Translations under genes and position numbers: made by a program
NCBI GenBank assembly: GCA_028821235.1
Contig: JAPPGV010000019.1
Location: 1 to 46,911 of the forward strand
Direction of reading: 5' to 3'
From: a bacterium
GTDB lineage: Bacteria > Actinomycetota > Acidimicrobiia > Spongiisociales > Spongiisociaceae
DNA length: 46,911 bases
In this document: piece by piece, positions 4,677 through 27,356 of the stretch
Numbering within the stretch: the stretch's first letter is position 1
Layout of the letters: every line of letters starts with the position of its first letter
The notes under the pieces: generated by a model
What the model was told of the DNA's origin: nothing
Seen by the model: only the letters and a program-made list of their open reading frames with translations
The model's database searches: none

Positions 4677-5681
4677 TCACGAATCGAGCCACGGGAAGCC
4701 CGGCTCTGCAGGTGCGTTGATCGTGTTGTCGGGAAGCTCGCCTCGCAGCGCCTGGATCGCTGCGGCCGCCATCTTTCTGCTCAGGTCGCGAACGGACTGC
4801 TCCGAGTACCAGGCGGTGTGGGGAGTCACAACCAGGTTGTCGAGCCCCAGGAGCGGGCTGTACATGTCGAACGGCTCCACGGCCATGACGTCGAGAGCCG
4901 CCCCGGCTAGGTGCCCGGAACTGAGTGCCTCATAGAGCGCTCCCTCCTCGATCAAGGCGCCGCGAGACACGTTGACGAGCCGGGCACCCGGCTTCATCAG
5001 CCGGATCGAGTCGGCGTTGATCACGTTCTCCGTCTCCGGGGTCTGATGGGTGTGCAGTGACACGAAGTCCGAAGAGCCGAGAAGGTGGGCCAGGCTCTTC
5101 GCCGGCATCACCGAGGCATCCCGCATGTCGGAGTGGTCCACATACGGATCGAACGCCATGACCTCGAACTCGATACCGCGTGCCTTGTCCGCTAGTCGGC
5201 GAGCGATACGGCCGAAACCGTAGAGACCGAGCCGGCATCCCCGGATGCGCGTGAGCCTGCCTCCGCCCGAATGGTCCCACTCGCCGCGGCGGCTGCTCAT
5301 ATGCAGAGGGAGCAGGCCTCTGGCAAGGGCGAGAAGCAGCGCGAGGGCGTGATCCGACACCTCCTCCACGCAGTAGTCCGGCACGTTGGCGACCGCAATG
5401 CCGCGCTCGGCGGCGAGCTCCAGATCGACGTGCTCGTGGCCTACGCCACCGAGGATCAAGGCGCGGCACTTCGAGGCGACTTCCAGGATTACCTCGGAGA
5501 TCGGGCTGGTGTGGACGAGTCCGGCATCGGCTTCGCGCAAGGCTGCGGCCGCTTCTTCCTCGCTGTTGCAAACGGATGTCATCAGGGCGGCGCCCGCCTC
5601 GTCGAGCAGGTCGCGCTCGATCGACCAGTTGCGAGGGGGCGTGTCGGGACCTTCGACGCCCACGACGAGCCGGTCCGTCAT
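4677..5681 (-). CDS. D-isomer-specific 2-hydroxyacid dehydrogenase
   Basis: 334-residue NAD(P)-dependent dehydrogenase that interconverts 2-hydroxyacids and 2-oxoacids. The dinucleotide-binding loop is GLYGFGRIARRLADKARG, of the GxGxxx(G/A) type. The catalytic residues of the family are visible: Arg in NVSRGALIEE, Glu in DVMAVEPFD and His in TPHTAW. The arrangement is closest to phosphoglycerate-dehydrogenase/CtBP-like members. ATG 5681 has GGAAGG about 8 nt upstream. It is divergent from the phosphotriesterase-like gene across 137 nt. In this context it may reduce or form a 2-oxoacid made by the nearby aminotransferases and ThDP enzyme, but the substrate is not shown by the sequence. Confidence 0.9.
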   Translation of the reverse strand: MTDRLVVGVEGPDTPPRNWSIERDLLDEAGAALMTSVCNSEEEAAAALREADAGLVHTSPISEVILEVASKCRALILGGVGHEHVDLELAAERGIAVANVPDYCVEEVSDHALALLLALARGLLPLHMSSRRGEWDHSGGGRLTRIRGCRLGLYGFGRIARRLADKARGIEFEVMAFDPYVDHSDMRDASVMPAKSLAHLLGSSDFVSLHTHQTPETENVINADSIRLMKPGARLVNVSRGALIEEGALYEALSSGHLAGAALDVMAVEPFDMYSPLLGLDNLVVTPHTAWYSEQSVRDLSRKMAAAAIQALRGELPDNTINAPAEPGFPWLDS

Positions 5682-5755
5682 GGCGGGCCTTCCATGCCCT
5701 TTGCCTGTACGAGAAAGCGACCGAGCAAGTCCGTGATCCCGGCATGCGGGACCGG

Positions 5756-5785
5756 TTGACTCGCTGACCGGGGCCCGTTTACTGT
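5756..5785 (+). promoter_or_regulatory. Possible housekeeping-type promoter of the PTE-like/amidohydrolase operon
   Basis: TTGACT at 5756-5761 matches a -35 box. A -10-like TTTACT (5778-5783, spacing 16) or TACTGT (5780-5785, spacing 18) follows. It would start transcription about 30 nt before the ATG at 5819, with the ribosome-binding site GGAGAGGG in the leader. Prediction by eye only. Confidence 0.4.
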
Positions 5786-5818
5786 CGCGGTGTCAGCGAG
5801 CAACGCAGGAGAGGGATC

Positions 5819-6760
5819 ATGTCGGATCCGGGAAGCGTGATGACCGTTCTGGGGCCTATACCAGCAGACCAACTCGGCTACGTGCTTCCCCATGAGCATC
5901 CCTATTGCCAGCTGCGCCAGGCGGCGCACCGCTATGACTTCCCCGATCAGTTCGATGACGACCGCGTCGTCACGGCCGAGGTCGCGGCGTTTAGAGAACT
6001 GGGCGGGACCACTCTCGTAGACCTGACTGTACCGGACATCGGCAGGTCGCCGGAGCGCCTGCGCAAGCTCTCTCAGAACACGGGCATCCACATCGTGATG
6101 GGCTGCGGATGGTACCGGGGCAACTACTACCGGCCCGAGGATGTCATCGAGAGACGTACCGTCGGATCGCTCGCTGACCAGCTCATCGCTGAGATCACGG
6201 ACGGAGTCGACGGTACCGGCATCAAGCCCGGGGTGATCGGTGAGATCGGTGTGGAGAAGACCTGGGTCGCTCCGGTGGAGGAGAGGGTGCTGCGAGCGGC
6301 GGCGCGGGCCCACAAGGCAACCGGACTCGCCCTGGGCGCCATCCACGCCATCGGCCCGGTCGCACCCGACATCTTGACCATTTTCGACGAAGAGGATGTC
6401 GACATGTCGCGGGTCGCGGTGGCCCACTGCGATTCCTATCCCCACATGGAGTTCCTCGAAGGTCTCATCGCACGAGGAGTCTTCGTCATGTTCGACAACT
6501 GCGGACAATACAGTGGTCTGGGGACCTTCGAGGAGCACATCATGAACACTGTGAAGGAGTTGGTCGACAAGGGGCATGGGGACCACATCCTTCTCTCGCA
6601 CGACACCTGCAAGTTCCCCCAGTTCAAGATCCACGGAGGTCCCGGTTTCGTGTATCTCTCCGAGACGTTCCTACCGGCGCTGCGCGACCTGGGCATCACG
6701 GAGAAGACGATCAACAGGATCACCCGGGACAACCCCCGCCGCTGGCTCGTCGGGTCGTAG
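5819..6760 (+). CDS. Phosphotriesterase-family metal hydrolase, copy 1
   Basis: 313-residue (beta/alpha)8 metallohydrolase of the phosphotriesterase/PHP family, whose members hydrolyse lactones, sugar lactones or phosphotriesters. The dinuclear metal site is visible: His25 and His27 (HEH), Glu142 (GVIGEIG), His176, His203 (VAHCD) and Asp262 (LSHD). The bridging ligand is Glu where classical phosphotriesterase has a carbamylated Lys, as in E. coli PHP. GGAGAGGG precedes the ATG. It aligns without gaps with the gene at 23358-24299 (hand count about two-thirds identical, all ligands conserved). Directly after its stop comes a remnant of an amidohydrolase and then a full amidohydrolase, so it probably acts in the same pathway. 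A lactonase or cyclic-amide role is inference. Confidence 0.9.
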   Translation: MSDPGSVMTVLGPIPADQLGYVLPHEHPYCQLRQAAHRYDFPDQFDDDRVVTAEVAAFRELGGTTLVDLTVPDIGRSPERLRKLSQNTGIHIVMGCGWYRGNYYRPEDVIERRTVGSLADQLIAEITDGVDGTGIKPGVIGEIGVEKTWVAPVEERVLRAAARAHKATGLALGAIHAIGPVAPDILTIFDEEDVDMSRVAVAHCDSYPHMEFLEGLIARGVFVMFDNCGQYSGLGTFEEHIMNTVKELVDKGHGDHILLSHDTCKFPQFKIHGGPGFVYLSETFLPALRDLGITEKTINRITRDNPRRWLVGS

Positions 6761-6916
6761 GCGGTAGGCGGGGCAGAGGGAGAGGCCGTGCCCGGAGGCG
6801 GTGAGTTCACCCGCATTGGTCAGGCCGACGCCTACGCGGCAATCGATGCGATAGCGGCAGGGTGCGAAGCCATGGCTGGGCCCTCTCGCTTCGCTATCCG
6901 GCCCCTCGTGCCATGA
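6761..6916 (+). pseudogene. C-terminal remnant of a lost amidohydrolase paralogue
   Basis: In the same frame as the upstream phosphotriesterase-like gene and starting right after its stop, this stretch reads as GEAVPGGGEFTRIG, then ADAYAAIDA, then ends PLVP-stop. It matches the last 45 or so residues of both amidohydrolases in this window, which have GEAVYDGGRFTRFD, AEAYRRIDA and an end PWPIVG (6913-8367) or PLVD (24407-25849). It has no plausible start and no catalytic part. Its stop TGA overlaps the ATG of the intact amidohydrolase (ATGA at 6913-6916). The simplest reading is a deletion that removed most of one of two tandem amidohydrolase genes. Confidence 0.75.
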
Positions 6917-8367
6917 CGGCTGCCGGCGAAGTGCTTCCGGCCACGGGTGTCGACACCGTGCTGCGGCACGGTCACATCATCACCATGGATCCCGAGCGCC
7001 GTATCCTGCTGGACGGTTCGATTGCGATTGGCGACGGCCGGATCGTCGACATCGGACCGGATGACGAGGTTGCGGTGCCCGACGGCGCGGTGGAACGCGA
7101 CCTGCAGGGCGCTCTTGTTCACCCCGGATTCATCGATGCTCACGTTCACGTCAACAGCCAGGAGTTGATCCGCGGGTTCGCGCCCAAGGACACCGCCGAC
7201 TGGAGCGATCTGGAGCTGGCGCTGTGGGATGCGCGGTCACCGGAGATGGACTACTTCGGCACTCTCATCTCGTCTATGGAGATGGTCGCCAACGGTACGA
7301 CGATGTTTGCCGACACCGGGAGTGCCTTCTGGCTGGAAGACGAGGTGCGCGCCCTCGAGATGGTTGGTATCCGGGGCTTCCCCGGCCACTTCCTCATCGA
7401 CGGCAACCTCGAGATCGACGCCGACGAGCTCGAGGATCCGCGGTTCGGTTCCATGCCGCAGTCGGAGATCGACATCCTCGGCGTGACCACCCCCGTCGCG
7501 CTCGAGCGGCTGCGGCGCCAGATCGCGGATTACCCCTTTCACAGCGAGCGGCGGGTGAGGGGCGTAGTCAACATGTTCGGCAGCGGGCGGAACACGGACG
7601 AGCTGCTAGTCCGTGCCCGGGAGTTGGCAGCCGAACACCGGGTGCCCATGATCATGCACCAGTCCTGGGGACCCGAGGAGGTCAGCGCCTCGCTCGACGA
7701 GCACGGAAAGCGGCCCCTCGAACACCTGGCCGACCTCGGAATCCTCGGGCCGGGGCTTACGCTCGCGCACATGATCCACCTCGACGATCGGGAGCTGGAG
7801 CTCACGATCGACTCGGGCACCCACGTCGTCCACTGCCCGACGGCCTCGGTGCGCCGGGGTATGGGGGCCCTTCGGCTGGGCCGTTTCCCGGAGATGGTGC
7901 GCGCCGGTCTGGCGGTCGCACTCGGGTCCGATGGAGTGAGCGCCCGGCGCGACGTGGGGCGGCAGATGTATCTCGCCGCGGTGGGATTCCGCGAGGTCCG
8001 GAACGAGATGCCGGTCTTCACGGGGGAGACGATCCTCGAGATGGCGACACTGCACGGTGCAGCGGCCGTGGGCATGGCAGGCGAGATCGGGTCGCTGGAG
8101 GTCGGCAAGCGCGCCGACATCGTGATCCACTCGCTGGACCGGCCCGAAGCGCACCCGAGATTCCAGGACCCCGTCGACAGCCTGGTGTTCTACCGCCAAA
8201 CCCGCACGGTCGACACGGTCATCATCGATGGGGAAGCCGTCTACGACGGGGGTCGCTTCACCCGCTTCGACGCGGCCGAGGCGTATCGCCGGATCGACGC
8301 GGCCGCTTCCCGCTTCGAGAGAGAAGTGGGTCCGGGGAGCTTCACCCCCTGGCCGATCGTGGGCTGA
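6913..8367 (+). CDS. Amidohydrolase of the TRZ/ATZ (cytosine/guanine deaminase-like) group, copy 1
   Basis: About 484 residues. An N-terminal beta domain (VDTVLRHGHIITMD) and C-terminal beta strands wrap a TIM barrel, the layout of chlorohydrolases and deaminases acting on triazines, purines and similar heterocycles. Metal ligands are visible: His77 and His79 (DAHVH), His249 (MIMHQSW), His286/His289 (LAHMIH) and Asp340 (ALGSDG). The family hydrolyses ring C-N, C-NH2 or C-Cl bonds using one metal ion. ATG 6913 overlaps the stop of the upstream remnant; GTG 6862 would add 17 residues that overlap the remnant and look non-coding. It is coupled to the FAD oxidoreductase 5 nt downstream. A close paralogue lies at 24407-25849. 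Substrate unknown. Confidence 0.9.
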   Translation: MTAAGEVLPATGVDTVLRHGHIITMDPERRILLDGSIAIGDGRIVDIGPDDEVAVPDGAVERDLQGALVHPGFIDAHVHVNSQELIRGFAPKDTADWSDLELALWDARSPEMDYFGTLISSMEMVANGTTMFADTGSAFWLEDEVRALEMVGIRGFPGHFLIDGNLEIDADELEDPRFGSMPQSEIDILGVTTPVALERLRRQIADYPFHSERRVRGVVNMFGSGRNTDELLVRARELAAEHRVPMIMHQSWGPEEVSASLDEHGKRPLEHLADLGILGPGLTLAHMIHLDDRELELTIDSGTHVVHCPTASVRRGMGALRLGRFPEMVRAGLAVALGSDGVSARRDVGRQMYLAAVGFREVRNEMPVFTGETILEMATLHGAAAVGMAGEIGSLEVGKRADIVIHSLDRPEAHPRFQDPVDSLVFYRQTRTVDTVIIDGEAVYDGGRFTRFDAAEAYRRIDAAASRFEREVGPGSFTPWPIVG

Positions 8368-8372
8368 CCCCC

Positions 8373-9929
8373 GTGAGGGGCTCGACGGGGACCGACACGG
8401 ATGTCGTCATCGTGGGCGCCGGGCACAACGGGTTGGTGGCGGCGTTCTACCTGGCGCGTGCCGGACTCCGGGTGCGGGTTCTCGAGGCCCGAAGCCTCGT
8501 GGGCGGCGCTGTGGCCACCGAAGAACTGATTGACGGGTTTCGCTTCTCCACGTGCGCGTTCAGGCTGTGGGGCCTGCAACCACGGGTGATCCAGGACATG
8601 GGGCTTGCCGGACGTGTCACCGTCCGCAAGCCGGAACCGACCGTGCTGCGGCTCTATCCCGACGGCCGCTCCCTCAAACAGTGGAGTGACCTGGGCCGCA
8701 CGGCCGCCGATCTCGAGTCCTTCTCACCTGGGTCGTCGGCTCGCCTGGCGGACTGGTCGGCATTGTGGGAGCGGGCGGGTGCGCTCTACGAGCCGTTCGT
8801 GTTACGGGAACCCCCTTCCGAGTCGGAACTGCGTGCTCGGTCTGCCCGATTGGGCGATCCCGACCTGTACGACACCCTTCGGACGGGAGACATGGCATCG
8901 CTCGTGCAGGATCACTTTGCCGACGAGGCCGTCCAGGGCGCCTACATCGCGGCGCCTGCCGATCCTCGCCAGCCCGGATCGCCGCTCGAGGCCGCCTGGG
9001 CCTCGGCTCCTCTGGATCCGGATTGGGCCGGGCTTCCGGACGGCGGCATGGGCGCCCTCGCTTCCGCGATGGCCGAGGCGGCGGCCGGGGCAGGGGCGGA
9101 GATCACGACCGATGCCCCGGTGACACGCATCCTGGTGGACGATGAGGGAGCGGCCGGGGTCGAGTTGGGGGATGGGAGCCGTCTCGACGCCGGCATGGTC
9201 GTGTCCAACCTGAGTCCGCGGGCGACCTACACGTGGCTCGTCGACCCCGGTGCGTTGGACCCGTCGTTTCTCGGGAGGGTGGAGGAAATCTCGAGCACGA
9301 TCGGCTACCTCAAGCTGCACGCGGGCCTTCGGGAGCCGATGGACCTGTCACGCTACCTGGGCCCCGACCACGATCCGGTGGCGGGGTCGTACATGAGGAT
9401 CACCCGGTCGATCGACCACTACATCTCGGCCTGGGAGGACTGTGCCGCCGGCCGACCGGCGAGGGACCCCGTCATCCAACTGGGAACGCACACTGCGTTC
9501 GACCCGGCCAGCGCGCCGCCGGGGGGTCACGCGGTGTCGGCCCTCGTCCTGTATGCACCACCGGTTCCCGAGAACGGAACGTGGAGCGATCTCCGCACCT
9601 CCGTGGCGGAAGACCTGATCGATCGGATCACCGAGTACGTGCCCAATTTCCGCAGGGCGCTCGTCGATTACGTCCTCTTCACGCCGGCCGACCTGGAGCG
9701 CAGGCTGGGCATGCCGGCCGGGGACATCCATCACGGTGACCATCTCCCCGGCCAGTTCTTCACCGGACGACCGTTCCCGGACTCGGGTGGATGGCGGAGC
9801 CCGATCACCGGGTTGTACCTATGCGGCGCCGGCACGCATCCCGGTGGCGAGGTCACCGGGGCCCCTGGTTACAACTGCGCGGCGGCGATCCTGGCCGATC
9901 GGAGCGGCTGGGATCGCCATTCTGGTTGA
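8373..9929 (+). CDS. FAD-dependent oxidoreductase, phytoene-desaturase/PYROXD2-like
   Basis: 518-residue flavoprotein. The N-terminal ADP-binding fold is DVVIVGAGHNGLVAA followed by acidic VLEA about 30 residues on. The C-terminal FAD contact YLCGAGTHPGGEVTGAPG is typical of NAD(P)/FAD oxidoreductases of the CrtI/PYROXD2 group. These remove or add hydrogens on C-C or C-N bonds, usually at a membrane surface. The frame is open far upstream through the amidohydrolase gene, but that part is a shadow; GTG 8373, five bases after the amidohydrolase stop, is the likely start, with no strong ribosome-binding site, so translation is probably coupled. Carotenoid synthesis is not indicated, since no phytoene synthase or other carotenoid gene is nearby. 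An oxidation step in the same catabolic route is more likely, by inference. Confidence 0.87.
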   Translation: MRGSTGTDTDVVIVGAGHNGLVAAFYLARAGLRVRVLEARSLVGGAVATEELIDGFRFSTCAFRLWGLQPRVIQDMGLAGRVTVRKPEPTVLRLYPDGRSLKQWSDLGRTAADLESFSPGSSARLADWSALWERAGALYEPFVLREPPSESELRARSARLGDPDLYDTLRTGDMASLVQDHFADEAVQGAYIAAPADPRQPGSPLEAAWASAPLDPDWAGLPDGGMGALASAMAEAAAGAGAEITTDAPVTRILVDDEGAAGVELGDGSRLDAGMVVSNLSPRATYTWLVDPGALDPSFLGRVEEISSTIGYLKLHAGLREPMDLSRYLGPDHDPVAGSYMRITRSIDHYISAWEDCAAGRPARDPVIQLGTHTAFDPASAPPGGHAVSALVLYAPPVPENGTWSDLRTSVAEDLIDRITEYVPNFRRALVDYVLFTPADLERRLGMPAGDIHHGDHLPGQFFTGRPFPDSGGWRSPITGLYLCGAGTHPGGEVTGAPGYNCAAAILADRSGWDRHSG

Positions 9930-10186
9930 AGAGTTGCGCATGGACGGTCGAATAGACCTAACCGACAGCCGGTAGACCGCTAGTCCGCGGCTGGATTCGC
10001 ACGGTCATTGCGTCGATCGCTTCGTCGGGTCTGCGGCCACGATGGGAACGGTCCGTGAGGGTGGTTCGCCGATCCCACTATCTCGGACGCCGGACAATCT
10101 CTCCCTGTATGCTCAACCGAGGCCACTCCGGGGTCAGGCGGAGCAAGTGGACGTTCGTACCCGGGGTCCGGACGAAGGGAAGAACG

Positions 10187-12001
10187 ATGCACAAGCACCG
10201 ACCAGGACGATGGCTGGCACTGTTGTTGACACTGGCTGTGTTCGCCGTCGCCTGCGGCACGGACGAACCGGACGAGGCGGCACCTGCGACGACGGCCGCG
10301 CCGGCAACCACCGCTGCGCCCGCGGAGACAACCGCTACCACGGTTGTGGAGGTGGGAACGACCACCACGACCGAGGCGCCGGCGGGTGAGCCGACCACGA
10401 CGACCGCCGCTCCCACGACGACTACCACCGAGGCGATGGCCGAACCCCTGACGGGCCGCGAGGCGACCGTGGTGATCGGCAAGAAGATGGATAGCGACAC
10501 CATTTTCGATCCGGCGCGGGCCTTCGAGGAGTTGTACGTGCTGGTGCTCGGATCCGTGTACAACACCCTCACGCAGTGGGCGGAGACCGATAACGGCTAC
10601 GACTACCAGCAGTTGCTTCCCGAGTTGGCCACCGAGTGGTCGTCCAACGCGGACGCCACCCAGTGGACCTTCAAGCTGGACCCGGACGCCCGCTTCCACG
10701 ACGGATCACCGGTCACCTCCGAGGACGTGGCCTTCTCGTTCATGCGGCTGAAGAACGTAGCCGCCACGCCGTCCTACCAGGGGGCCAACATCGTCAGCGC
10801 CGTGACGCCCGACGATCAGACCGTGGTATTCAACCTCGAAAACGCAGACGCGGAGTTCCCGGCCCTGACCACCGCGGCCGCCTTCAGCGTCCTCAACAGC
10901 GAGTTGGTGATGGCCAACGGCGGTGCGGCCGGCGAGGACGCCTCCGAGACCGATACGGCCGGTGAGTGGCTGGCTCTGAACAGCGCCGGCTCCGGGCCGT
11001 TCACCTTCGACTTCTCCGAACCGGGCAGCCGCCTCGAGATCGTCCGGGTGGACGACTACTGGGAAGGCCCGCCCGCCGTGATGGAGAGGGTCATCTTCGT
11101 GAACATCCCCGAAGCCCAGTCACGCATCGACGCACTGTCCCGCGGCGACATCGACCTGGCATGGACGGTGATCCCGCATCAGGCGGCCTCGCTCGGTGAC
11201 GACTTCACGATCCTCCAGGCCAACACCAACCACTGGTACTACGTGATGTTCACGACCGACCCGGACAACAACGCGTTCGTGGCCAACCCGACGGTCCAGC
11301 AGGCGCTCAAGTACGCCATCGACTACGACGGCCTCCAGCGACTCTGCCCCGGATACACCGCCAACCGGGTGTACGGCCTGGCGCCGATGCGCCTGGGAGG
11401 CATCACGGAGGGCTACGAGCGTGACCTGGACAGGGCACGGGAACTGCTGGCAGAGGCGGGCTACCCGGACGGCTACGACGATCCGGAGAACCCGATCCGC
11501 CTCCAGACGTTCCAGTGGAGCGGCTTCTGCCCCGGTTTCGGCGACGTTGCGCAGAAGCTGGCCGCCGACTTTGCCGACATCGGCGTCAAGACCGAGGTGC
11601 AGATCCGAGACGTCGGTGTGTTCTTCACCGACTTCCGCAAGGGCGACCTCGACATCAACGTGAGCGACTGGTTCCCGGAATATCCGTCGGCCATGAACTC
11701 GGCGCAGGTGTCGTTCGCGGACGGATTCCTGAACTGGCAGCGCTCGCTCTGGCCCGACAATGCCGAGGGCTGGCTTCTCTATGACGAGATCAAGGCGGCA
11801 GGAGACGCGGCGCTGGCGTCGGTCGACCCGGCGGAGCGGATGAGCCTGCTGAACGACGTGGAGCGGATGAGCCTTGACGCCAACCCGACTCACCTGATGG
11901 TCGAGATCCCCGAGTGGTATCCGCACGTCAACACGTTGACCGGGGTCTACTACCACGCCGTCTACCGGTTCGAGCCGTACCGGATGGGGCGGTCCCGGTA
12001 G
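10187..12001 (+). CDS. ABC transporter substrate-binding lipoprotein, family 5 (dipeptide/oligopeptide type)
   Basis: 604-residue exported binding protein. A basic N-terminus (KHRPGRW) and hydrophobic helix lead into a lipobox ending at Cys23 (AVAC). A Thr/Pro/Ala-rich linker follows, then the SBP_bac_5 fold with the family landmarks WTFKLDPDARFHDG, GSGPF and a long two-lobe body. It should sit lipid-anchored outside the membrane and hand peptides, nickel or other ligands to the permeases encoded downstream. ATG 10187 follows GAAGGGAAG. It is separated from the permease genes by a strong GC hairpin at 12033-12060, a common way to keep binding-protein mRNA in excess. Ligand not predictable. 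Confidence 0.9.
   Translation: MHKHRPGRWLALLLTLAVFAVACGTDEPDEAAPATTAAPATTAAPAETTATTVVEVGTTTTTEAPAGEPTTTTAAPTTTTTEAMAEPLTGREATVVIGKKMDSDTIFDPARAFEELYVLVLGSVYNTLTQWAETDNGYDYQQLLPELATEWSSNADATQWTFKLDPDARFHDGSPVTSEDVAFSFMRLKNVAATPSYQGANIVSAVTPDDQTVVFNLENADAEFPALTTAAAFSVLNSELVMANGGAAGEDASETDTAGEWLALNSAGSGPFTFDFSEPGSRLEIVRVDDYWEGPPAVMERVIFVNIPEAQSRIDALSRGDIDLAWTVIPHQAASLGDDFTILQANTNHWYYVMFTTDPDNNAFVANPTVQQALKYAIDYDGLQRLCPGYTANRVYGLAPMRLGGITEGYERDLDRARELLAEAGYPDGYDDPENPIRLQTFQWSGFCPGFGDVAQKLAADFADIGVKTEVQIRDVGVFFTDFRKGDLDINVSDWFPEYPSAMNSAQVSFADGFLNWQRSLWPDNAEGWLLYDEIKAAGDAALASVDPAERMSLLNDVERMSLDANPTHLMVEIPEWYPHVNTLTGVYYHAVYRFEPYRMGRSR
10277..10435 (+). repeat. Low-complexity Thr/Ala/Pro linker in the binding lipoprotein
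   Basis: Residues 31-83 of the binding protein consist almost only of short ATTAAP-, TTTTTEAP- and TTTTAAP-like units encoded by imperfect ACG/ACC-rich repeats. It is a flexible wall- or membrane-spanning tether, common in actinobacterial lipoproteins. The repetitive DNA could vary in length between strains. Confidence 0.75.
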
Positions 12002-12032
12002 TCGAGGTTCCGCGGGAGACCGCACAAACCAA

Positions 12033-12060
12033 CGGGGGGCGGCCGGGAGGTCGCCCCCCG
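12033..12060 (+). terminator. GC-rich hairpin between binding protein and permease genes
   Basis: A perfect 9-bp stem, CGGGGGGCG at 12033-12041 with CGCCCCCCG at 12052-12060, closes a 10-nt loop. It is not followed by a T run, so it is more likely an mRNA-stabilising or attenuating element than a full intrinsic terminator. Position after the binding-protein gene fits partial read-through into the permease genes. Confidence 0.6.
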
Positions 12061-12104
12061 ATCGCCCTCTCGTACGGCTGAAGCCATGACCCGGAGGAGT
12101 TGAC

Positions 12105-13142
12105 ATGCGCTGGTTCGTACTGCGGCGCCTGGCCTTGGCGCCGTTCGTGCTGCTGGGCATGACCTGCATCACCTTCTTTGTGTCCCAACTGATCCCCATC
12201 GACCCGGTTGCCGCCTACCTGGGAGGTCGGGGCGCCGCCCAATCCGACGCGGCGGAACAGGCCATCATCGACGCCCTCAGCGCTCGCTGGGGATGGGACA
12301 AGCCGATCCCGGAGCGCTACTGGATCTACCTGACCAACCTGCTGCAGGGCGACATGGGCGAGTCGAGCCACTCGGCGCGTGCGGTCAGCACCGACCTCGC
12401 CAACGTGCTACCCCCGACCATCGAGCTGGTGGTGGCAGCTCTGGTGGTCGCTCTCGTGTTCGGCATCCCGCTCGGCGTGTTCGCGGCGGCGCGCCGGGGA
12501 GGAGTTTGGGACGCGCTCTTCAAGGTGGTCTCCACACTGGCGATCTCGGTGCCGGTGTTCTGGCTTGCCATCGTCGGGTTCATGGTCTTCTACGGGCGGC
12601 TGGGGTGGGCTGCCGGGCCGGGCCAGCTGGACATCTTCACGCGCCCACCGCCGGAGGTGACCGGGATGGTCACCGTCGACTCCATACTGGCCGGCCGATG
12701 GGACGCCCTGTTCGACACCCTGCACCACCTGGCGTTCCCCGCCCTGGTGTTGGGTCTGGTGATCGGCTTCTACTTCGCCCGGGTGGTCCGTTCGGAGATG
12801 GTCGACGCCCTGGAGTCGGACTACGTTCGCACCGCCCGCGGCAAGGGACTGCGCCGGCGGCTGGTCCTCTACCGCCATGCTTTTCGCAACGCGGTCATCC
12901 CCGTGATCACCCTGTCGGGGCTCGCCTTCGGTTCGCTGCTCACCGGGATCATCGTGGTCGAACGCGTGGTGGGCTGGCCCGGACTCGGCCAGTACGCCTT
13001 CACGGCGGCCACCCGCCTGGATCTCAACGCCCTCTCGGGGGTGGTGCTGGTGATCAGCCTGGCCTACGTGCTGGCCAACCTGACGGTAGACCTGCTGTAC
13101 ACGGTGGCCGACCCACGGGTGCGCGACGGGATGCGGTCGTGA
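12105..13142 (+). CDS. ABC transporter permease, DppB type
   Basis: 345-residue membrane permease of the dipeptide/oligopeptide/nickel importer class. It begins MRWFVLRRLALAPFVLLGMTCITFF, the standard DppB first helix, has the conserved N-terminal region with RYWIYLTNLLQGDMG, and carries the ATPase-coupling EAA loop DYVRTARGKGLRRRLVLYRHAFRNA. The last helices end in LADLTVDL-like NLTVDLLYTVADPRVR. GGAGGAG lies 6 nt before the ATG. Its stop overlaps the start of the DppC-type gene by 4 nt, so the two membrane subunits are translationally coupled. With the lipoprotein and two ATPases it forms a complete importer. Confidence 0.93.
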   Translation: MRWFVLRRLALAPFVLLGMTCITFFVSQLIPIDPVAAYLGGRGAAQSDAAEQAIIDALSARWGWDKPIPERYWIYLTNLLQGDMGESSHSARAVSTDLANVLPPTIELVVAALVVALVFGIPLGVFAAARRGGVWDALFKVVSTLAISVPVFWLAIVGFMVFYGRLGWAAGPGQLDIFTRPPPEVTGMVTVDSILAGRWDALFDTLHHLAFPALVLGLVIGFYFARVVRSEMVDALESDYVRTARGKGLRRRLVLYRHAFRNAVIPVITLSGLAFGSLLTGIIVVERVVGWPGLGQYAFTAATRLDLNALSGVVLVISLAYVLANLTVDLLYTVADPRVRDGMRS

Positions 13143-14017
13143 CCGCAGGCCGGCTCCGCCGCCTGGAAGAGGCGGTAGCGCCCACCCGCTTCGCCACGAC
13201 CATGGAGTCCCTGCGGCCCCGCACCTTCCTCGAGTTCTACGGCGTGGGGGTGATCGTGGTGATGGTGACGGCTATCGCCGCGGCACCGCTTATCGCCCCC
13301 GATCCTTTCGCCCAGGATCTGCCGTCGGCCCTGGCCGGCTCGAGTGCCGATCACTGGCTGGGCACCGACAACCTGGGCCGCGACCTGTGGTCACGTATCC
13401 TCTACGGGGGCCGGGTGTCGGTGGTGATCGGCGTCTTCGTCCTCCTGACGGCGGGCGCCGTAGGGGTGCTCTACGGCGCAGTGTCCGGATATGCCGGTGG
13501 GATGGTCGACGCGGTGATGATGCGGATCGTCGACATCTTCCTGTCGTTCCCCTCCATCATGCTGGCCCTGCTCATCTCCGCGGCGCTGGGACCCACCATC
13601 CGCAACGTCATCATCGCGATCGCGGCAGCGTGGTGGCCGGTCTATGCCCGGCTGATCCGGGGCCAGGTCATCGTGGTGAAGGAACGCGAGTTCGTAACCG
13701 CCTCCAGGGCACTGGGAGCGGGGCCGATGCGGAACCTGCTGTGGACGGTCCTGCCCAATAGCTTCGGGGTGATGAAGACGATCTTCGTCCTCGACATCGG
13801 CTACGCCATCCTGGCCGGCTCCACGCTCGGCTTCCTGGGCCTCGGCGTCACGCCGCCGACCCCCGAGTGGGGTTACATGATCCGGGAGGCCCTCCAGTAT
13901 CCCACCCACTGGTGGTTCATCATCAGCCCCGGCCTCGCCCTGCTGCTCTTCGTATCGGCCATCAACTTCGCCGGGGGCATCGTCACCCGGTCGGTATATG
14001 AAGTCCCCGGTCACTGA
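13139..14017 (+). CDS. ABC transporter permease, DppC type
   Basis: 292-residue partner permease. A cytoplasmic N-terminus leads into the first helix (FYGVGVIVVMVTAIAAAPL), followed by the DppC hallmark HWLGTDNLGRDLWSRILYG. The EAA loop EFVTASRALGAGPMRNLLWTVLPN and the C-terminal FLGLGVTPPTPEWG motif are also present. The GTG start overlaps the upstream stop (GTGA). The 3' end overlaps the following ATPase gene by 20 nt if that gene starts at its first ATG. Sequence is intact and of normal length. Confidence 0.93.
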   Translation: MTAGRLRRLEEAVAPTRFATTMESLRPRTFLEFYGVGVIVVMVTAIAAAPLIAPDPFAQDLPSALAGSSADHWLGTDNLGRDLWSRILYGGRVSVVIGVFVLLTAGAVGVLYGAVSGYAGGMVDAVMMRIVDIFLSFPSIMLALLISAALGPTIRNVIIAIAAAWWPVYARLIRGQVIVVKEREFVTASRALGAGPMRNLLWTVLPNSFGVMKTIFVLDIGYAILAGSTLGFLGLGVTPPTPEWGYMIREALQYPTHWWFIISPGLALLLFVSAINFAGGIVTRSVYEVPGH

Positions 14018-15122
14018 ACCCGGCACCGGCGCGGTTGAGATGCCCGAGCCGGACCGGACTCTGCTGTCGGTGAGGGATCTGAACGTGACTTTCCGGGCAA
14101 AGTCCTTGGTTCGGGCAGTCCGCGGGGTCTCGTATGACCTGGCGGTGGGGGAGCAGGTGGGTCTGGTGGGCGAGAGCGGATCGGGCAAGAGCGCCAGCGC
14201 CCTGGCGCTGGTTCGGTTGCTGCCCGATTACGCAGACGTGTCCGGAAGGGTGACGCTGGAACGTACCGACCTGATGCGGCTCACCGAGCGCGAGCTGCGG
14301 GGCGTCCGGGGTGACCAGGTAGGGATCGTCTACCAGGATCCCTTCAGTTCGCTGAACCCGGTACTCACCATCGGCACGCAGCTCACCGAGGTACTTCGCA
14401 AGCACAAGGGACTCGGGGCAAGGGCGGCGCGGCGGGCGGCGGCCCGGCTGCTGGGAACCGTGGGTGTGCCCAACGCGGAGGAGCGCATCTCCGACCATCC
14501 CCACCAGTTCTCCGGAGGCATGCGGCAGCGCGCCGTCATAGCCATGGCGGTGGCGCCCCGGCCCGCACTCTTGATCGCGGACGAGCCGACCACCGCCCTC
14601 GACGTCACCGTACAGGCCCAGATCTTGGAGTTGCTCCAGGAACTGACCTCCGAGCACGAGACCACGATGCTGCTCATCACCCACGATCTGGGTGTGGTGG
14701 CCGGCGTCACGCAACGGGTGATGGTGATGTACGCGGGGCGCATAGTCGAGTCCTCCTCCACCGAGGACGTGTTCACGAGAGCGTCCCATCCCTATACGGT
14801 CGCGCTTCACAGATCCCTACCCCGGATCGATGTCCGCCAAGAACGGCTCGTGACGATCGAGGGCCAGCCTCCCGACCCGACCCAACTTGTCAGGGGATGC
14901 CCCTTCGCTCCCAGGTGCCCTTCCAGAATCGATCGATGCGCCGATGAGGACCCGCCGTTGATGACCATCCCTACCGCCCGGCGCGCCGCCGCCCGGGGCT
15001 GGGACATGGCGTCGATCCGTGAGGAGGACGGAGAGCAGGTTCCCGGACCGGCGAGCCCCCACCTGACCGCCTGCTGGAACCCCCCGGATCCGGCGGGAGA
15101 CGAACCCGGACCAGCCCGATGA
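13998..15122 (+). CDS. ABC transporter ATPase, DppD type
   Basis: 374-residue ATP-binding subunit. Walker [10 protein letters not shown]-loop in [12 protein letters not shown], signature FSGGMRQR, Walker B LLIADEP and the switch His in ITHDLGVV are all present. The C-terminal oligopeptide-transporter extension carries the clustered Cys ([14 protein letters not shown]) typical of DppD/OppD. ATG 13998 lies inside the end of the permease gene; ATG 14040 (MPEPDRTLL) is an alternative that removes 14 poorly conserved residues. It pairs with the next gene to power import. Confidence 0.92.
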
Positions 15123-16222
15123 GCACCGAGCAGGTTGTGAGCCCGGTCTTGGTCGAGGTCCAGGACCTGCGGGTCTGGTTTCCGGCCGGGCGGGGATCGT
15201 CTACCAAGACCGGCGGCTCCATCAAGGCGGTGGACGGGATTACGTTCACGGTCCAGCGCGGAGAGACCCTGGGTCTCGTGGGTGAGTCGGGATGCGGCAA
15301 GACAACCACCGCCCGAGCCGTCCTCAAACTCCTGGACCCGACGGAGGGACGCATCCTCTTCGACGGCGTCGACCTGTCAACCGTCTCGCGTAGAGAACTC
15401 CGGCTGATGCGACGCCGGATGCAGCCGGTGTTTCAGGATCCGTTCTCCAGCCTCAACCCGAAGCGTACGGTGGCGCGGATAATCGCCGAGCCGCTCGTCA
15501 TCCATCGCCAGGGGACCGCATCGGAGCGCCGGGAGAGGGTTGGCGAGCTGCTCGACACCGTCGGGTTACCACCTGACGCGGCGGGCCGCTACCCGCATGC
15601 GTTCAGCGGAGGCCAGCGTCAGCGAATCGCCATCGCCCGGGCCATGGCCCTTCGACCGGACCTGATCATCGCCGACGAGCCCGTCAGCGCTCTCGACGTC
15701 AGTATCCGCGCCCAGATCCTCAACCTGCTCAGCGACCTCCAGCAGGAATTCCACCTGACCTATCTGGTCATCGCGCACGATCTCGCCCTCGTACGGCAGG
15801 TGACCGACCGGGTGGCGGTCATGTACCTGGGAAAGATCGTCGAGCTGCGACCCACAGAGGACCTGTACCGGCGACCGCTCCACCCGTACACGGTGGCGCT
15901 GCTGTCGTCGGCGCCCATTCCCGACACCGAGGCCGAAGCGACCCGGCAACGCATCGTGTTGGAGGGTGATGTACCCAGCCCGGCCGATCCGCCGACAGGC
16001 TGTCGCTTCAACACCCGATGCTGGCTCCGGCGAAATCTGGGAAACCCGGACGTCTGCACCACCGAAGCCCCCCCTCTGGCGGAGGTACAGGACCGCGGAG
16101 CTTCCGGCGTGGTGGCGTGCCACTTCCCGGAGGCGGTGGAGGACTCCCCCGAACGTAGGGAGACACTGGTGGCTCTCACCGGTTCGAGGGGTTCCTCCTC
16201 CTATCACCAACCACCCGACTAG
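15119..16222 (+). CDS. ABC transporter ATPase, DppF type
   Basis: 367-residue second ATPase, started by an ATGA overlap with the previous stop. Walker A GESGCGKT, signature FSGGQRQR, Walker B LIIADEP and switch His IAHDLALV are intact. The C-terminal Cys motif ([19 protein letters not shown]) is of the DppF/OppF kind. It closes a five-gene importer operon. Only 11 nt separate it from the end of the convergent SDR gene, so any transcription stop must lie within coding sequence. Confidence 0.92.
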
Positions 16223-16233
16223 GGATTGATCAT

Positions 16234-16977
16234 CTAGCCGAGCATATCCCCGCGATCCACCACCGCGACCTCACCCGTGATCGAGTCGTTGGACACCAGC
16301 CCGATGAGAGACCGGACCACGTCCTCCACCGGCACCAGAGGCACCGCTCCCGCCCGGATCTCCCTGGCCCGGTCGGCAGGCACGTGGCGATCGATCCACT
16401 CGGTGAGCATCCAACCCGGCGCGATGGCATTGACCTGCACCGTGGGTGCCAGCGCCCTGGCCAGGCAGCGGGTGAGCGACACCAGCGCGGCCTTCGACAC
16501 CACGTAGGGGATGGAGCTACCCGTGCTGGTGAGAGCGGAATTGGAGGCTACGTTGATGATCTTGCCCGCACCCCTGGATTGCATCCCGGGCGCCACCGCC
16601 CGGGAACACAGGAACGCACCCGTGACGTTGACGTCCATGATCCGCCGCCACTCCTCCGCGGTGACCGCCCCCAGGTCGGGAAACGGAACGTAGCGGGTGG
16701 TGCCCGCATTGTTGACGAGGATGCTCACCGGTCCTAGCTCCTCCTCGACCGACGCCACCATCGAGGAAACCGCCGAACCGTCGGTGATGTCGGCCTGGAC
16801 CGCCAGCGCGGTCCCTCCGCGGTCCCTGATCCGCCGGACCACTCTTTCCGCCTCCAGGCGCGACCTGGAGTAGTTTACGGCCACCGACGCGCCCGCCCCC
16901 ACCAGTGCGAGGGCAGTTGCTCGACCGAGACCGGTGCCTCCGCCGGTCACCAGCGCCACCCGCCCGTCCAAGTCCAT
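16234..16977 (-). CDS. Short-chain dehydrogenase/reductase (SDR)
   Basis: 247-residue classical SDR. The cofactor loop is TGGGTGLG at residues 11-18, NNAG is present, and the active site comprises the Ser in NVASNSALTS and YVVSK. Such enzymes oxidise or reduce alcohol/carbonyl groups with NAD(P). GAGGAGG lies before ATG 16977, three bases after the stop of the class V aminotransferase gene, so it is the third gene of the ThDP enzyme-aminotransferase-SDR operon. A plausible role is converting the aldehyde made by the decarboxylase, but this is inference; the protein lacks substrate-specific marks I can read. Confidence 0.9.
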   Translation of the reverse strand: MDLDGRVALVTGGGTGLGRATALALVGAGASVAVNYSRSRLEAERVVRRIRDRGGTALAVQADITDGSAVSSMVASVEEELGPVSILVNNAGTTRYVPFPDLGAVTAEEWRRIMDVNVTGAFLCSRAVAPGMQSRGAGKIINVASNSALTSTGSSIPYVVSKAALVSLTRCLARALAPTVQVNAIAPGWMLTEWIDRHVPADRAREIRAGAVPLVPVEDVVRSLIGLVSNDSITGEVAVVDRGDMLG

Positions 16978-16980
16978 CCT

Positions 16981-18150
16981 CTACCTCCTCGGTACCCGGG
17001 CAGAAGCACCAGCCCGCCTGTACGCGTCGATTCCCTGAAGAAGACGGTCCACGTCGCCGGGGGTGTTGTAGAGGTGGGGATCGGCCCGGACCCGGTCGTC
17101 CTCGGGGTATCCCCACACATCCACGCCCAGCCTCCGCAGGTGGCGGCACAACTGCACCGCGCCGTCGAAGTGGAAGGCCACCACCCCGCCACGCTCGTTC
17201 GGGTTCGCCGGGGTCAGCACCCGGATCCCCCGTTCGGCCAACCCGTCGATCATCTGCCCGGTCAGTTCCACGACATGCCGTTCGATGTCCGTTATGCCCG
17301 CCTCGAGGATGATGTCCAAACCTCTGCGCGCTGCCGCGATGCCCGGCAGGTCCGCCAGACCGATCTCGTGGCGCACCGCGCCGGGCCGGTACGAGAGGTT
17401 CCCGGGCACGTCCGGCCCGCCGCCCCGGTAGGCCCCCACGTAGCCGACGTGGGGCGGCGCCAGAGACTCGATGTGCTCTCGGCGCGCGTAGAGGTATCCC
17501 AACCCGGGCGGACCGAGTAACCACTTCATCAGCGTGCCGCTCATAAAGTCGACACCGGCAGCCTCGGCATCGATGGGGACGGCGCCCGCCGACTGGGCGG
17601 CGTCGACGATGAGGTAGCCGGCACAACCGCGGGCCAACTCGGCCAGCCTCCGGAGGTCGTGGCGGAAGCCGGTGCGGGGGTCCACGTGGGAGACGAGCAC
17701 CGCGATGGTGTTCTCGTCCACGAGGCTCTCGATCCCCGCCATCCAGGTGGAGGGTGGTCCATCAGCAACCGATCGGACCTCGACCGGGCGGCGGTCGGGC
17801 AGCAGCCAGGGCCAGACGGCGCTCGGGTGGGAGGTCGGGTCGGTGACGATGTTGGCGCCGGCAGGCGGTTGGATCATCTGGACCGCCAGGTTGGACCCCC
17901 GAGAGGTATTGTCGACGATGGCTATCTCGCCGGGATCAGCGCCCACCACGGTCGCCAGCCGGGTCCTGAGCTGCTCCCACTCGTCGAAGTAACGTGCGCG
18001 GTGATACGCCGGATCTGACATCCATCGATCGGACCACCGGTCGAGGGCCGCCTTGACCGGGATCGCAGCGGGCGCAAGACCCCCGGCGAAGAGGTAGGCG
18101 CGGGTCTCGGTGATCGGGAAGAGCGACCGGTACCGCCCGGTCAGGACCAT
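16981..18150 (-). CDS. Class V aminotransferase family PLP enzyme (isopenicillin N epimerase/cysteine desulfurase-like)
   Basis: 389-residue fold-I PLP protein. Visible are the cofactor Asp in LIVDAAQSAG and the Schiff-base Lys in LMKWLLGPPGLGYLY. This is the form found in isopenicillin-N-epimerase-like and kynureninase-like proteins of class V. The frame stays open upstream, but ATG 18150 is preferred: GAGG lies before it and MVLTGRYRSLFPIT begins recognisable sequence. It overlaps the stop of the ThDP decarboxylase gene by 10 nt and is followed after 3 nt by an SDR. Epimerase, transaminase, lyase or desulfurase activity cannot be separated by sequence. Pairing with a 2-oxoacid decarboxylase favours transamination or amine release in the same route. 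Confidence 0.85.
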   Translation of the reverse strand: MVLTGRYRSLFPITETRAYLFAGGLAPAAIPVKAALDRWSDRWMSDPAYHRARYFDEWEQLRTRLATVVGADPGEIAIVDNTSRGSNLAVQMIQPPAGANIVTDPTSHPSAVWPWLLPDRRPVEVRSVADGPPSTWMAGIESLVDENTIAVLVSHVDPRTGFRHDLRRLAELARGCAGYLIVDAAQSAGAVPIDAEAAGVDFMSGTLMKWLLGPPGLGYLYARREHIESLAPPHVGYVGAYRGGGPDVPGNLSYRPGAVRHEIGLADLPGIAAARRGLDIILEAGITDIERHVVELTGQMIDGLAERGIRVLTPANPNERGGVVAFHFDGAVQLCRHLRRLGVDVWGYPEDDRVRADPHLYNTPGDVDRLLQGIDAYRRAGASARVPRR

Positions 18151-19715
18151 GCAGGCACCTCGACCAGGGTCGGACCATCGGCTGCCAGGGCGACCTCCAC
18201 CGCATCCGCCAGATCCGCGGGCTCGGTCACGCGCGTCCACGATGCACCGTAGGCGGTGGCCAGGGTTGCCAGGTCGGGGACAAGCAGGTCGGTACCGAAC
18301 GGCTCGAACCCTCGTTCCCGCATCAGGCGGCTTATCTCCCCGAAGGCCCGGTCGTTCCAGATGACCACGGGAAGCGCGAGCCCGTGCTGGGCGGCCACCA
18401 TCAGCTCCGACATGGTGAACATGAACCCGCCGTCCCCCACGAGTGCCGCCACCGCCCTGTCGGGCCGGGCGATCTTGGCGCCGATCGCGGCGGGCAGCGC
18501 GTATCCCAGAGTGGCCAGACCGGACGGGTTCATCCATGTCCGCGGGCCAGGGAGGCCGTAGAAGGGGAAGGCGCCGAATCCGGCCACCATCGCCACATCG
18601 AGGGCGAGGGAGGACTCCTCAGGCATGGCCGCCCGCAGCGCACGGATCCAGGGAAGGTAGGGCCGGCCCATGACCAGCGCCTCCTTCTCGGCCGCCTCGC
18701 GCACCTGGGCCGCACGGGAAGCACCCGCCCGGGGCCTCGAACCCGCCACGCAGTCGAGCACCATGGCCAACGCCGTCCCGGCCTCTCCGACCACCGCCGC
18801 GTCCACCGGGTGGTTGCGTCCGATCTGCTCCTGGTCGATGTCGACCTGTACCAGCTTCCCGTCCAGCTGCAACGGGCCCAACCAGAGGTCCGCCGGGCTC
18901 AGCTCCGTGCCCACGGCCAGCACCACGTCACACCCTTCTAGGAAACGCGCCACCGAGCGGTAGACAACCAGCGAAGCCTCCAGAGGATGGCCACTCGGGA
19001 CCACCCCCTTCCCGTTGAGCGTGGTCACGACGGGCGCGTCAAGGTGCTCGGCCATCGCCAACACCCCCTCGACCGCCCCCTGCGCGCCGCCCCCCGCCAC
19101 GACGGCCGGCGCCGCGGCCGAACCGAGGAGTCGGGAGGCTCTCAAGACCGCGTCCCCATCCGGAGCGGGCGGATCCTCGGCGGGTGCGGACGGAATGGGT
19201 GCCGAGGTCGCCGCCTCCTGCACGTCCACGGGAATGGCCAGGCACACCGGCCGGGGCCGCTCGGTCCTGAACCGCAGGAACGCGTAGTGCACCGCCTGCG
19301 CCACTTCGTCAGGGGAGAGCACGAGCCGGGACCGGTCGGTGATGCCCTCCAGGACGCTCTCCTGGGAGCGGAGTTCGTGCGAGTGGCCCCGGCCGCGCCC
19401 GATGTCCTCACTGGGGATGTGGGCGGTGATGCAGAGCACCGGAACGGAGTCGGAGTAGGCCTCGGCGATGGCGGTTGCCGCATTGGTGACGCCCGGCCCG
19501 GTGGTCACGATGCACACCCCCGGGCGGCCGGTCACCCGGGCGTAGCCATCCGCCATGAAGGCTGCCCCCTGCTCGTGGGTGGTGGTGATGTGCTCGATGT
19601 CCCGCGCCCGGCCCAGGGCACGGTAGATCTCGAGAGTGTGGGTGCTCGGGATGCCGAAGACGTGCCGGACACCGTTGACCCGGAGCGACTCGATCAGTGC
19701 CTCGGCGCCGGTCAT
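18141..19715 (-). CDS. ThDP-dependent 2-oxoacid decarboxylase, AruI/acetolactate-synthase-like
   Basis: 524-residue thiamine-diphosphate enzyme. Catalytic Glu48 (THEQGAAFMADGYA), the central domain with PAVVAGGGA, and the ThDP/Mg motif GDGGFMFTMSEL...NDR are intact. The start FGIPSTHTLEIYRAL and RGRGHSHELRSQ resemble 5-guanidino-2-oxopentanoate decarboxylase (AruI) of the arginine transaminase pathway more than acetohydroxyacid synthase. It would turn a 2-oxoacid into an aldehyde and CO2 in the cytoplasm. GGGGAGAA precedes ATG 19715. It is the first gene of an operon with a class V aminotransferase and an SDR. Its 5' end is only 31 nt from the divergent D-aminoacylase gene. The AruI assignment is by motif memory and needs a tree. 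Confidence 0.85.
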   Translation of the reverse strand: MTGAEALIESLRVNGVRHVFGIPSTHTLEIYRALGRARDIEHITTTHEQGAAFMADGYARVTGRPGVCIVTTGPGVTNAATAIAEAYSDSVPVLCITAHIPSEDIGRGRGHSHELRSQESVLEGITDRSRLVLSPDEVAQAVHYAFLRFRTERPRPVCLAIPVDVQEAATSAPIPSAPAEDPPAPDGDAVLRASRLLGSAAAPAVVAGGGAQGAVEGVLAMAEHLDAPVVTTLNGKGVVPSGHPLEASLVVYRSVARFLEGCDVVLAVGTELSPADLWLGPLQLDGKLVQVDIDQEQIGRNHPVDAAVVGEAGTALAMVLDCVAGSRPRAGASRAAQVREAAEKEALVMGRPYLPWIRALRAAMPEESSLALDVAMVAGFGAFPFYGLPGPRTWMNPSGLATLGYALPAAIGAKIARPDRAVAALVGDGGFMFTMSELMVAAQHGLALPVVIWNDRAFGEISRLMRERGFEPFGTDLLVPDLATLATAYGASWTRVTEPADLADAVEVALAADGPTLVEVPAWS

Positions 19716-19746
19716 CGCTAACTTCTCCCCGGAGTAGGCTCGGCGC

Positions 19747-21333
19747 GTGGTCGACCTTCTCCTGCGGAATGCGACGATCTACCCCGGCGACGCCGAGCCA
19801 CTGCCGGGAGATGTCGCAATCGACAACGGCGTCATAGTAGCGGTGGGCGCCGGTCTGCAGCCTGAGGCGGCTTGCACCATCGACCTCGATGGGCTGTCGC
19901 TGGCTCCCGGGTTCGTGGACATGCATGCCCACAGCGCGCTGCGCTCGTTCGAGGATCCGATCCTCACCCCCAAGCTTCTCCAGGGCTTCACGACGGAACT
20001 CATCAACCCTGACGGGATGGGCCCGGCGCCCGTAACGGACGAGGGTCTGGCCGACCGGATGACCCAGCTGGCTCTGTCCGAAGGTCGAGGCCCTGGCGAG
20101 TGGCCCTGGCGATCCATCAGCGAGTACATGGAGGCCCTGGACGGAACGCGTCCCGCCATAACCCTGTGCCCGTTCGTCCCTCATGGTGCGGTGCGCGACG
20201 CCGTGCTGGGGGGAGGCCGGCGGCCACCCGGCGGTGACGAATTGCGCGCCATGCGCCGCCAGGTCGCGCAGGGCATGGAGGCGGGTGCGTGGGGGATCTC
20301 CTTCGGCCTGGTGTACACGCCGGGCGCGTATGCGGACCGAGACGAGGTCGTGGCCGTCGCCACCGAGGCGGGCCGGTTCGGCGGGCTGATCTCTGTCCAC
20401 ATGCGGGGCGAGAGCCATAACCTGCTGGAGGCGGTCGAGGAGATGATCGACGTCTCACGCCGGAGTGGGGCGCCCCTTCACCTCTCCCACCTGAAGGTGT
20501 TGGGGCACCGCAACGCCTGGAAGCTGGAGCCGCTGCTCGAAATGATCGACAGAGCGCCCGTGGACGGGGTCGACGTCACCTTCGACCAGTATCCCTACGG
20601 TGCCGGTGTGACCCTGCTGTCCGCCCTGCTACCCCCGTGGGCACATGACGGGGGCGTCAAGCAGATGGCAGCTCGTTTGCGGGACCGCCCGACGGTGGAC
20701 CGTCTGCTCCAGGCGCTCGGAGACCCGGCCGCGGGCCCGGAGAGCTTCTACTACCAGTGTGGCCCGGAGGGAATCGTCGTGATCGACTGCGGGCCCGACG
20801 GTCCCGGGGATGCAATGGGGCGCACGCTGACCGAGATCGCCTCCGCCCGAGGGGTCGATCCCGAACGGGTGGTAATCGACCTCTTGCTGGAAACCGGGAT
20901 GAGCGCGCTGGTCATCCTCCATTACGCCGAAGAGTCCACCGTCAAGGCCATCGCCCGGCACCCGGCCATGCTGGTGGGCAGTGACGCCGTCTTCGCCGCC
21001 ACACCCCACCCGAGGCTGTGGGGCACCGCACCCCGGTTCCTGGGCGGTTACGCCATCAGGGATCGCGTCGTCACAGTACGTGAAGCCATTGCCCGGCTCT
21101 CGTTCCGGGCCGCACGGCGGGTCGGGCTGGACGACCGAGGCGAGATCGCACCGGGACAGCGAGCCGACCTGGTCGCCTTCGACCCAGACCGGGTGATCGA
21201 CCGGGCGACCTACGACCAACCCGAGCTCTCACCCTCCGGGATCGACTGGGTAATCGTCGGCGGTACGGTCGCGGTAGACCCAAAAGGTCCCACCCGTGCC
21301 CGCCGCGGTCAGATCGCCCGCAGGCACTGCTAA
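19747..21333 (+). CDS. N-acyl-D-amino-acid deacylase (D-aminoacylase) family amidohydrolase
   Basis: 528-residue amidohydrolase-superfamily protein. It begins with the beta-domain VDLLLRNATIYPGD and has His60/His62 (DMHAH), LQGFTTEL, later SHLKVLG, and VGSDAVFA. The order and spacing match D-aminoacylase and related N-acyl-D-amino-acid or dihydropyrimidine-type deacylases, which release amino acids from N-acyl or carbamoyl forms. The GNCG segment that supplies the bridging Cys in the Alcaligenes enzyme reads NPDGMG here, so the Cys is absent, as in other actinobacterial relatives. GTG 19747 follows GGAG. It could supply free D-amino acids to nearby aminotransferases; substrate not shown. Confidence 0.85.
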   Translation: MVDLLLRNATIYPGDAEPLPGDVAIDNGVIVAVGAGLQPEAACTIDLDGLSLAPGFVDMHAHSALRSFEDPILTPKLLQGFTTELINPDGMGPAPVTDEGLADRMTQLALSEGRGPGEWPWRSISEYMEALDGTRPAITLCPFVPHGAVRDAVLGGGRRPPGGDELRAMRRQVAQGMEAGAWGISFGLVYTPGAYADRDEVVAVATEAGRFGGLISVHMRGESHNLLEAVEEMIDVSRRSGAPLHLSHLKVLGHRNAWKLEPLLEMIDRAPVDGVDVTFDQYPYGAGVTLLSALLPPWAHDGGVKQMAARLRDRPTVDRLLQALGDPAAGPESFYYQCGPEGIVVIDCGPDGPGDAMGRTLTEIASARGVDPERVVIDLLLETGMSALVILHYAEESTVKAIARHPAMLVGSDAVFAATPHPRLWGTAPRFLGGYAIRDRVVTVREAIARLSFRAARRVGLDDRGEIAPGQRADLVAFDPDRVIDRATYDQPELSPSGIDWVIVGGTVAVDPKGPTRARRGQIARRHC

Positions 21334-21415
21334 CCGGTTGGCCTAGCTATGCCGCGAGTCCGCATCGAATGGGCACAGCCGCGTCTCACAGGCAGCACAT
21401 CCGCAGTCCAGAGAC

Positions 21416-21994: not shown

Positions 21995-22009
21995 GGGCAA
22001 GAGGATGGC

Positions 22010-22057
22010 CCCTGTCCGCGCTCCACGCGCAACTCAACTCGTGGGGAAGGACCAGGG
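22010..22057. terminator. Imperfect hairpin between convergent genes
   Basis: CCCTGTCC (22010-22017) can pair with GGACCAGGG (22049-22057) with one bulged base, and inside it CCACG (22023-22027) pairs with CGTGG (22040-22044). It lies between the kinase stop and the aminotransferase stop and could act as a terminator for both. No T run; by-eye prediction. Confidence 0.35.
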
Positions 22058-22059
22058 AC

Positions 22060-24299: not shown

Positions 24300-24406
24300 C
24301 GAACCCTCCAGTCGGCCATCGCGAGCCGAGTGGAACTCTAACGGGCCGATGAGCACGTGGCAGGCCTGAGAGCGGAGCCGCGGGCCGGGATCCTGGAGGT
24401 GGACAC

Positions 24407-25849: not shown

Positions 25850-25908
25850 GCCGCCTTCCCCGCCAAGCCTTCACCCCGTCGTAGGAACGCGTTTGTTACG
25901 GTTCGTCA

Positions 25909-27132: not shown

Positions 27133-27282
27133 CCGTAACGTACGCCAATATAACTACTCTTGTGTTGTCTTGGCACCTCTAGACCACGGCTGGCCCCATG
27201 GGGCTGGGCTCAAGTAACGCTCCTCGGCAAACGGGGCAGTTCAGCCGCAGCCGCACGGAGTCCTCACCCGACCACCCCCCGA

Positions 27283-27346: not shown

Positions 27347-27356
27347 ATTGACTTGC

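Follow-up and report, generated by a model that had tools for sequence, protein, structure and literature searches.

Scar of a tandem amidohydrolase gene, read from its relatives, between a phosphotriesterase-like gene and an intact amidohydrolase gene

The locus and the stub

The window analysed here is the whole stretch of 46,911 nucleotides from genome G000, and our interest lies in positions 6761 to 6916 of its forward strand, between two intact genes. The upstream gene belongs to the phosphotriesterase (PTE) family (PTE-like; 5819 to 6760, plus strand; Pfam PF02126, E 1.8e-63) and ends with a TAG stop at 6758-6760. Its orthologues in nine relatives, including the Acidimicrobiia MAGs CO36404bin_8, SB0661_bin_37 and 277c_8, are 89-99% identical. 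The downstream gene, AH1, encodes an amidohydrolase of 484 amino acids (6913 to 8367, plus strand; PF01979, E 1.1e-43) and has no Shine-Dalgarno (SD) sequence of its own (-1.7 kcal/mol). A paralogue of AH1 (AH2, 60% identical; 24407 to 25849, plus strand) adjoins a second PTE-like gene; it lies outside the scar and is used for comparison only. The genome holds about 20 or more amidohydrolase paralogues (26-60% identical to AH1) and several PTE-like genes as well, so both families are expanded.

Between the two genes one frame stays open from the PTE-like stop to a TGA at 6914-6916, and the stop-free translation of 6761-6916 is AVGGAEGEAVPGGGEFTRIGQADAYAAIDAIAAGCEAMAGPSRFAIRPLVP. The TGA overlaps the AH1 ATG (6913-6915) in a four-nucleotide ATGA at 6913-6916, just as the sequence-only reading had described. 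That reading also took the stretch for the end of an amidohydrolase, and the resemblance is real and significant. With AH1 as query, a six-frame search of the entire genome matched the stretch at E 1.3e-4 (49% identity, 45 amino acids), its partner in the alignment being AH1's own C-terminus. Against AH2 it reached an alignment score of 86, which 0 of 2000 shuffles of the stretch attained. The reverse search, with the stub against the family, returned the C-termini of another amidohydrolase of the relatives, here called AH0 (E 3e-9 to 5e-11, 53-62% identity), with the best match in G008 (62%, E 4.7e-11); the tails of AH1 and AH2 ranked below these, at 42-51%. A Pfam search of the stub gave no match. 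The stub covers the extreme C-terminus only, lacks the metal-binding catalytic barrel of the amidohydrolase superfamily and cannot be a working amidohydrolase.

The lost gene and the deletion junction

AH0 is a 478-codon amidohydrolase (PF01979), 64-65% identical to AH1. It stands intact in four congeners (G002, G005, G007 and G008, all Acidimicrobiia MAGs) between orthologues of the PTE-like gene (89-91% identical) and AH1 (91-94%), and its TGA overlaps the AH1 ATG in the same ATGA. These four are the only ones of the 15 family genomes searched in which it was found. A whole-genome search found no AH0 elsewhere in G000, the best other matches being AH1 (65%) and AH2 (63%). Because the AH0 C-termini rank above those of AH1 and AH2 in the stub search, we take the stub to be a leftover of AH0. 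As expected of a pseudogene remnant, four relatives carry its orthologue intact in the same syntenic place, and it is closer to that orthologue than to the paralogues AH1 and AH2. The sequence-only reading had proposed that a tandem amidohydrolase was lost here and that relatives be inspected for an intact extra gene between the two; that gene is present, and comparison with the relatives confirms that 6761-6916 carries the scar of AH0.

The point of deletion can be placed closely. G000 tracks the AH0 upstream spacer through GAGGCCGTG and then continues as the AH0 3' end. The AH0 Shine-Dalgarno sequence, GAGGGAGAGG (6776 to 6785, plus strand), is kept at the same place relative to the GTG as in the intact relatives, and the junction falls at the 8-bp word GAGGCCGT (6782 to 6789, plus strand), with the blastn pieces to the intact relatives overlapping at 6776-6790. 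In those relatives the AH0 GTG start is preceded by GGAGGGAGAGGCC, and the codons for GEAV near the AH0 3' end read GGCGAGGCCGT. The word GAGGCCGT occurs twice in G002, G005 and G007, once across the SD and start and once in the GEAV codons, some 130 nt from the 3' end; one of the two has diverged in G008, and G000 has the single copy at 6782-6789. It is the only word common to the AH0 start region and the last 220 nt in G005 and the joint longest in G002 and G007, and 8 bp of homology is expected at 0.04-0.08% of random breakpoint pairs in those regions. A direct repeat at both ends and one copy at the junction is the arrangement that a short-repeat deletion leaves, the intact state being taken from the relatives, and we infer from G002, G005 and G007 that the ancestor of G000 and G003 had the 8-bp repeat too. 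The amidohydrolase-derived part starts within or just past the repeat at 6782-6789. The junction may instead lie slightly further downstream, by a few bases; five transitions separate the first 19 nt past the junction from the G007 tail.

Since both copies of GAGGCCGT are in the same codon phase, the product of the deletion is an in-frame mini-ORF of 42 codons (GTG 6788 to TGA 6916, plus strand, 129 bases), in which the start is joined to the 3' end of AH0. The stub and its junction recur in G003, a close relative binned as a separate MAG, with 6 substitutions in 152 nt between the two genomes. The junction also corrects the sequence-only reading, which had let the amidohydrolase residues begin directly after the PTE-like stop. 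This holds downstream of the junction, but 6761-6781 is spacer between the PTE-like gene and AH0, and the GE of the GEAV that was noted is encoded by the AH0 SD region. That the stub continues the PTE-like frame is true and incidental, because the length of the spacer varies among relatives: AH0 shares the PTE frame in G002 and G008, whereas in G005 and G007 it lies in another.

The ancestral operon contained the PTE-like gene, AH0 and AH1, with the four-nucleotide ATGA overlap between the last two. About 1.3 kb was then deleted, apparently between the copy of GAGGCCGT at the SD and start codon and the copy in the GEAV codons near the 3' end; the most likely cause is replication slippage or some other short-homology event independent of RecA. 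What is left is the SD, the GTG start and about the last 41-42 codons, in a mini-ORF that still ends in the AH1 ATG. Bacterial genomes commonly contain variable segments between repeats of less than 30 bp, and these have been ascribed to slippage (PMC2884548). The present case is like such illegitimate recombination or slippage (PMC2884548; RecA-independent, PMC5426353) in its short direct repeat and in the loss of the intervening DNA. It differs in that one copy of the repeat spans the ribosome-binding site and start codon and that the product is in frame, and the mechanism is read here from the junction only.

Other genomes, all of those compared being MAGs, have lost more of the gene. G010 keeps about 20 nt of the AH0 start and its last 16 nt or so, in frame with AH1, and G001, G004 and G013 keep the SD and a few bases of AH0, with the SD 13 nt before the AH1 ATG. 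Because the alleles of G000/G003 and G010 hold sequence from both ends of AH0, the direction of change is loss.

Constraint, translation and alternative explanations

The dN/dS of the stub against intact AH0 is 0.65-1.6, a range that comes from 42 codons only. Compared over the whole gene, pairs of intact AH0 lie at 0.14-0.18, and for AH1 the same pairs of genomes yield 0.11-0.16. A value of about 1 against 0.11-0.16 points to a peptide without constraint. Residues common to all intact tails, for example the tryptophan preceding the final PxV and the F in FTRF, are also altered in the stub. Protein-level constraint is therefore lost, as in a pseudogene remnant, with the reservation that this is judged on 42 codons and that the tails of intact AH0 are in any case less constrained than the whole gene. 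By this measure the stub behaves as a pseudogene. It is like prokaryotic pseudogene remnants of large internal deletions in being truncated, unconstrained and at the orthologous position; it differs from them in having kept a start, a frame and a stop, so that it reads as a small ORF.

The translation signals were compared by duplex energy with a generic anti-SD, not the one from this genome's 16S. On this scale the SD of intact AH0 has -10.9 to -12.1 kcal/mol and that of the mini-ORF -10.5 in G000 and -9.4 in G003. The AH1 start has -3.7 in the intact genomes, -1.7 in G000 and -2.6 in G003, where random 20-mers have a median of -3.9. The lack of an SD at AH1 makes it plausible that translational coupling has been retained, and the four-nucleotide stop/start overlap associated with coupling is in place at 6913-6916. 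Ribosomes from the old AH0 SD probably cross the mini-ORF and re-initiate at AH1. The earlier suggestion that the ATGA may have been kept for coupling fits these data. Termination-reinitiation in E. coli is supported by as little as the final 15 nt of the upstream gene (PMC10666635). The likeness to ATGA termination-reinitiation (PMC6728339, PMC10666635) lies in the four-nucleotide overlap and a downstream gene without SD, and a short 3' part of the upstream gene sufficed in those E. coli tests as well. Here, in distinction, the upstream cistron is a deletion remnant.

One step beyond coupling, the stub could be selected as a translational leader, a mini-cistron whose sequence is free to change while its SD, start, open frame and ATGA are kept for the sake of AH1. 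We regard this as possible but doubtful. AH1 has no SD in intact and stub genomes alike, and the AH0 SD survives upstream of AH1 in every deleted allele, whether before the mini-ORF (G000, G003), an in-frame AH1 fusion (G010) or 13 nt from the AH1 ATG (G001, G004, G013). Neither copy of the stub contains a stop or frameshift. However, chance stops are rare in 42 high-GC codons, and there are two or three deletion classes only, with a spacer so short that a random breakpoint will often spare the SD; its retention is thus a weak sign of selection.

A small gene or micropeptide with a function of its own, unconnected with amidohydrolases, would account for the open frame with SD, start and stop in two genomes. 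The sequence-only reading had named conservation as a short independent gene as the finding that would speak against a remnant, but the stub is confined to G000 and G003 among the 15 family genomes, has dN/dS about 1 against AH0 and has no Pfam match, and we reject this explanation as very improbable. The stub could otherwise be a partial tandem duplication of the C-terminal end of AH1 or AH2, with no full gene ever lost, and it does resemble their tails (42-51% identity). This is refuted by the full gene at exactly this place in four relatives, by the closer match to the AH0 tails and by the 5' spacer with SD and the 3' overlap, which match both ends of the stub, and we give it next to no probability. 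Finally, the G000 assembly is a draft MAG in 162 contigs, and tracts identical to G007 (910 and 1032 bp) lie on either side of the locus, so that AH0 might have been collapsed out in assembly, but the same junction with 6 substitutions in the separate MAG G003 makes such an artefact extremely unlikely and we reject it.

We are highly confident in the explanation as a whole, that this is the scar of AH0 from a short-repeat deletion, an unconstrained mini-ORF with probable re-initiation at AH1. Within it, the homology, the gene kept intact in relatives, the junction, the scar common to G000 and G003, the relaxed constraint and the SD pattern are observed, and we infer the slippage mechanism, the translation of the mini-ORF and the coupling of AH1. 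To the sequence-only reading this adds the likely mechanism of loss, the reading as a mini-ORF and the allelic series.

History of the locus and meaning of the scar

Trees were used to ask whether a single loss lies behind all deleted alleles. The PTE tree unites the four intact alleles (100/99), and monophyly of the deleted ones is not rejected (p-AU 0.44). The stub of G000/G003 and the alleles of G010 and the short type may be separate deletions, or one first deletion that decayed differently. The G001/G013/G004 type might descend from a stub like that of G010; both share the spelling GGCTG, as judged by eye. The rpoB, PTE, AH1 and flank trees conflict in their groupings, and since AH1 and the flanks group otherwise than in the PTE tree, the locus has probably been reshuffled by recombination. 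G006 and G009 lack the PTE-AH0-AH1 locus throughout their genomes, even though the rpoB tree joins G006 to G000/G003.

G013 is a member of another genus, but over the PTE-AH1 region its DNA matches that of G001 at about 95% identity. More generally, the PTE-AH1 regions of G013 (L064) and G010 (L062) are 91-95% identical to that of another genus, with rpoB far more diverged. This pattern is either horizontal transfer or mis-binned contigs, the MAG contamination being 6-8%. The tracts in which G000 and G007 are perfectly identical lie at 5014-5923 and 8749-9780, and the 2.8-kb cassette between them differs by 6-15%; they reflect recent recombination between co-resident species or assembly mixing. 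The second PTE-like gene, PTE2 (23361-24299), is identical in G000 and G007 as well. A 17.4-kb segment at 9918-27354 contains peptide ABC transporter genes, the PTE2/AH2 pair and others; the blocks that flank it are directly adjacent in G001, G002, G004, G005, G007, G008 and G013, and its first part is on the other side of the locus in G010 and G013. Either lineages have exchanged the locus or the contigs of some MAGs are mixtures, which limits the counting of losses and leaves the identity of the scar unaffected.

The process is already known, and the stub is a gene-loss scar rather than a new kind of system, but the case is a clean one. It offers a before-and-after series of gene loss in one family, from the intact gene through an in-frame stub and a start-only stub to a near-clean deletion. 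It also shows that what looks like a short ORF behind a good ribosome-binding site can be the scar of a deletion, a point relevant to the annotation of small ORFs, and it provides a testable case of whether the survival of deletions is restricted by translational coupling. More tentatively, the needs of AH1 could channel the loss of AH0, the deletions that survive being those that hand the AH0 ribosome-binding site to AH1. If that is true, the alleles would illustrate in nature each way of doing so: an ATGA-terminated mini-ORF, an in-frame fusion and an SD beside the AH1 start.
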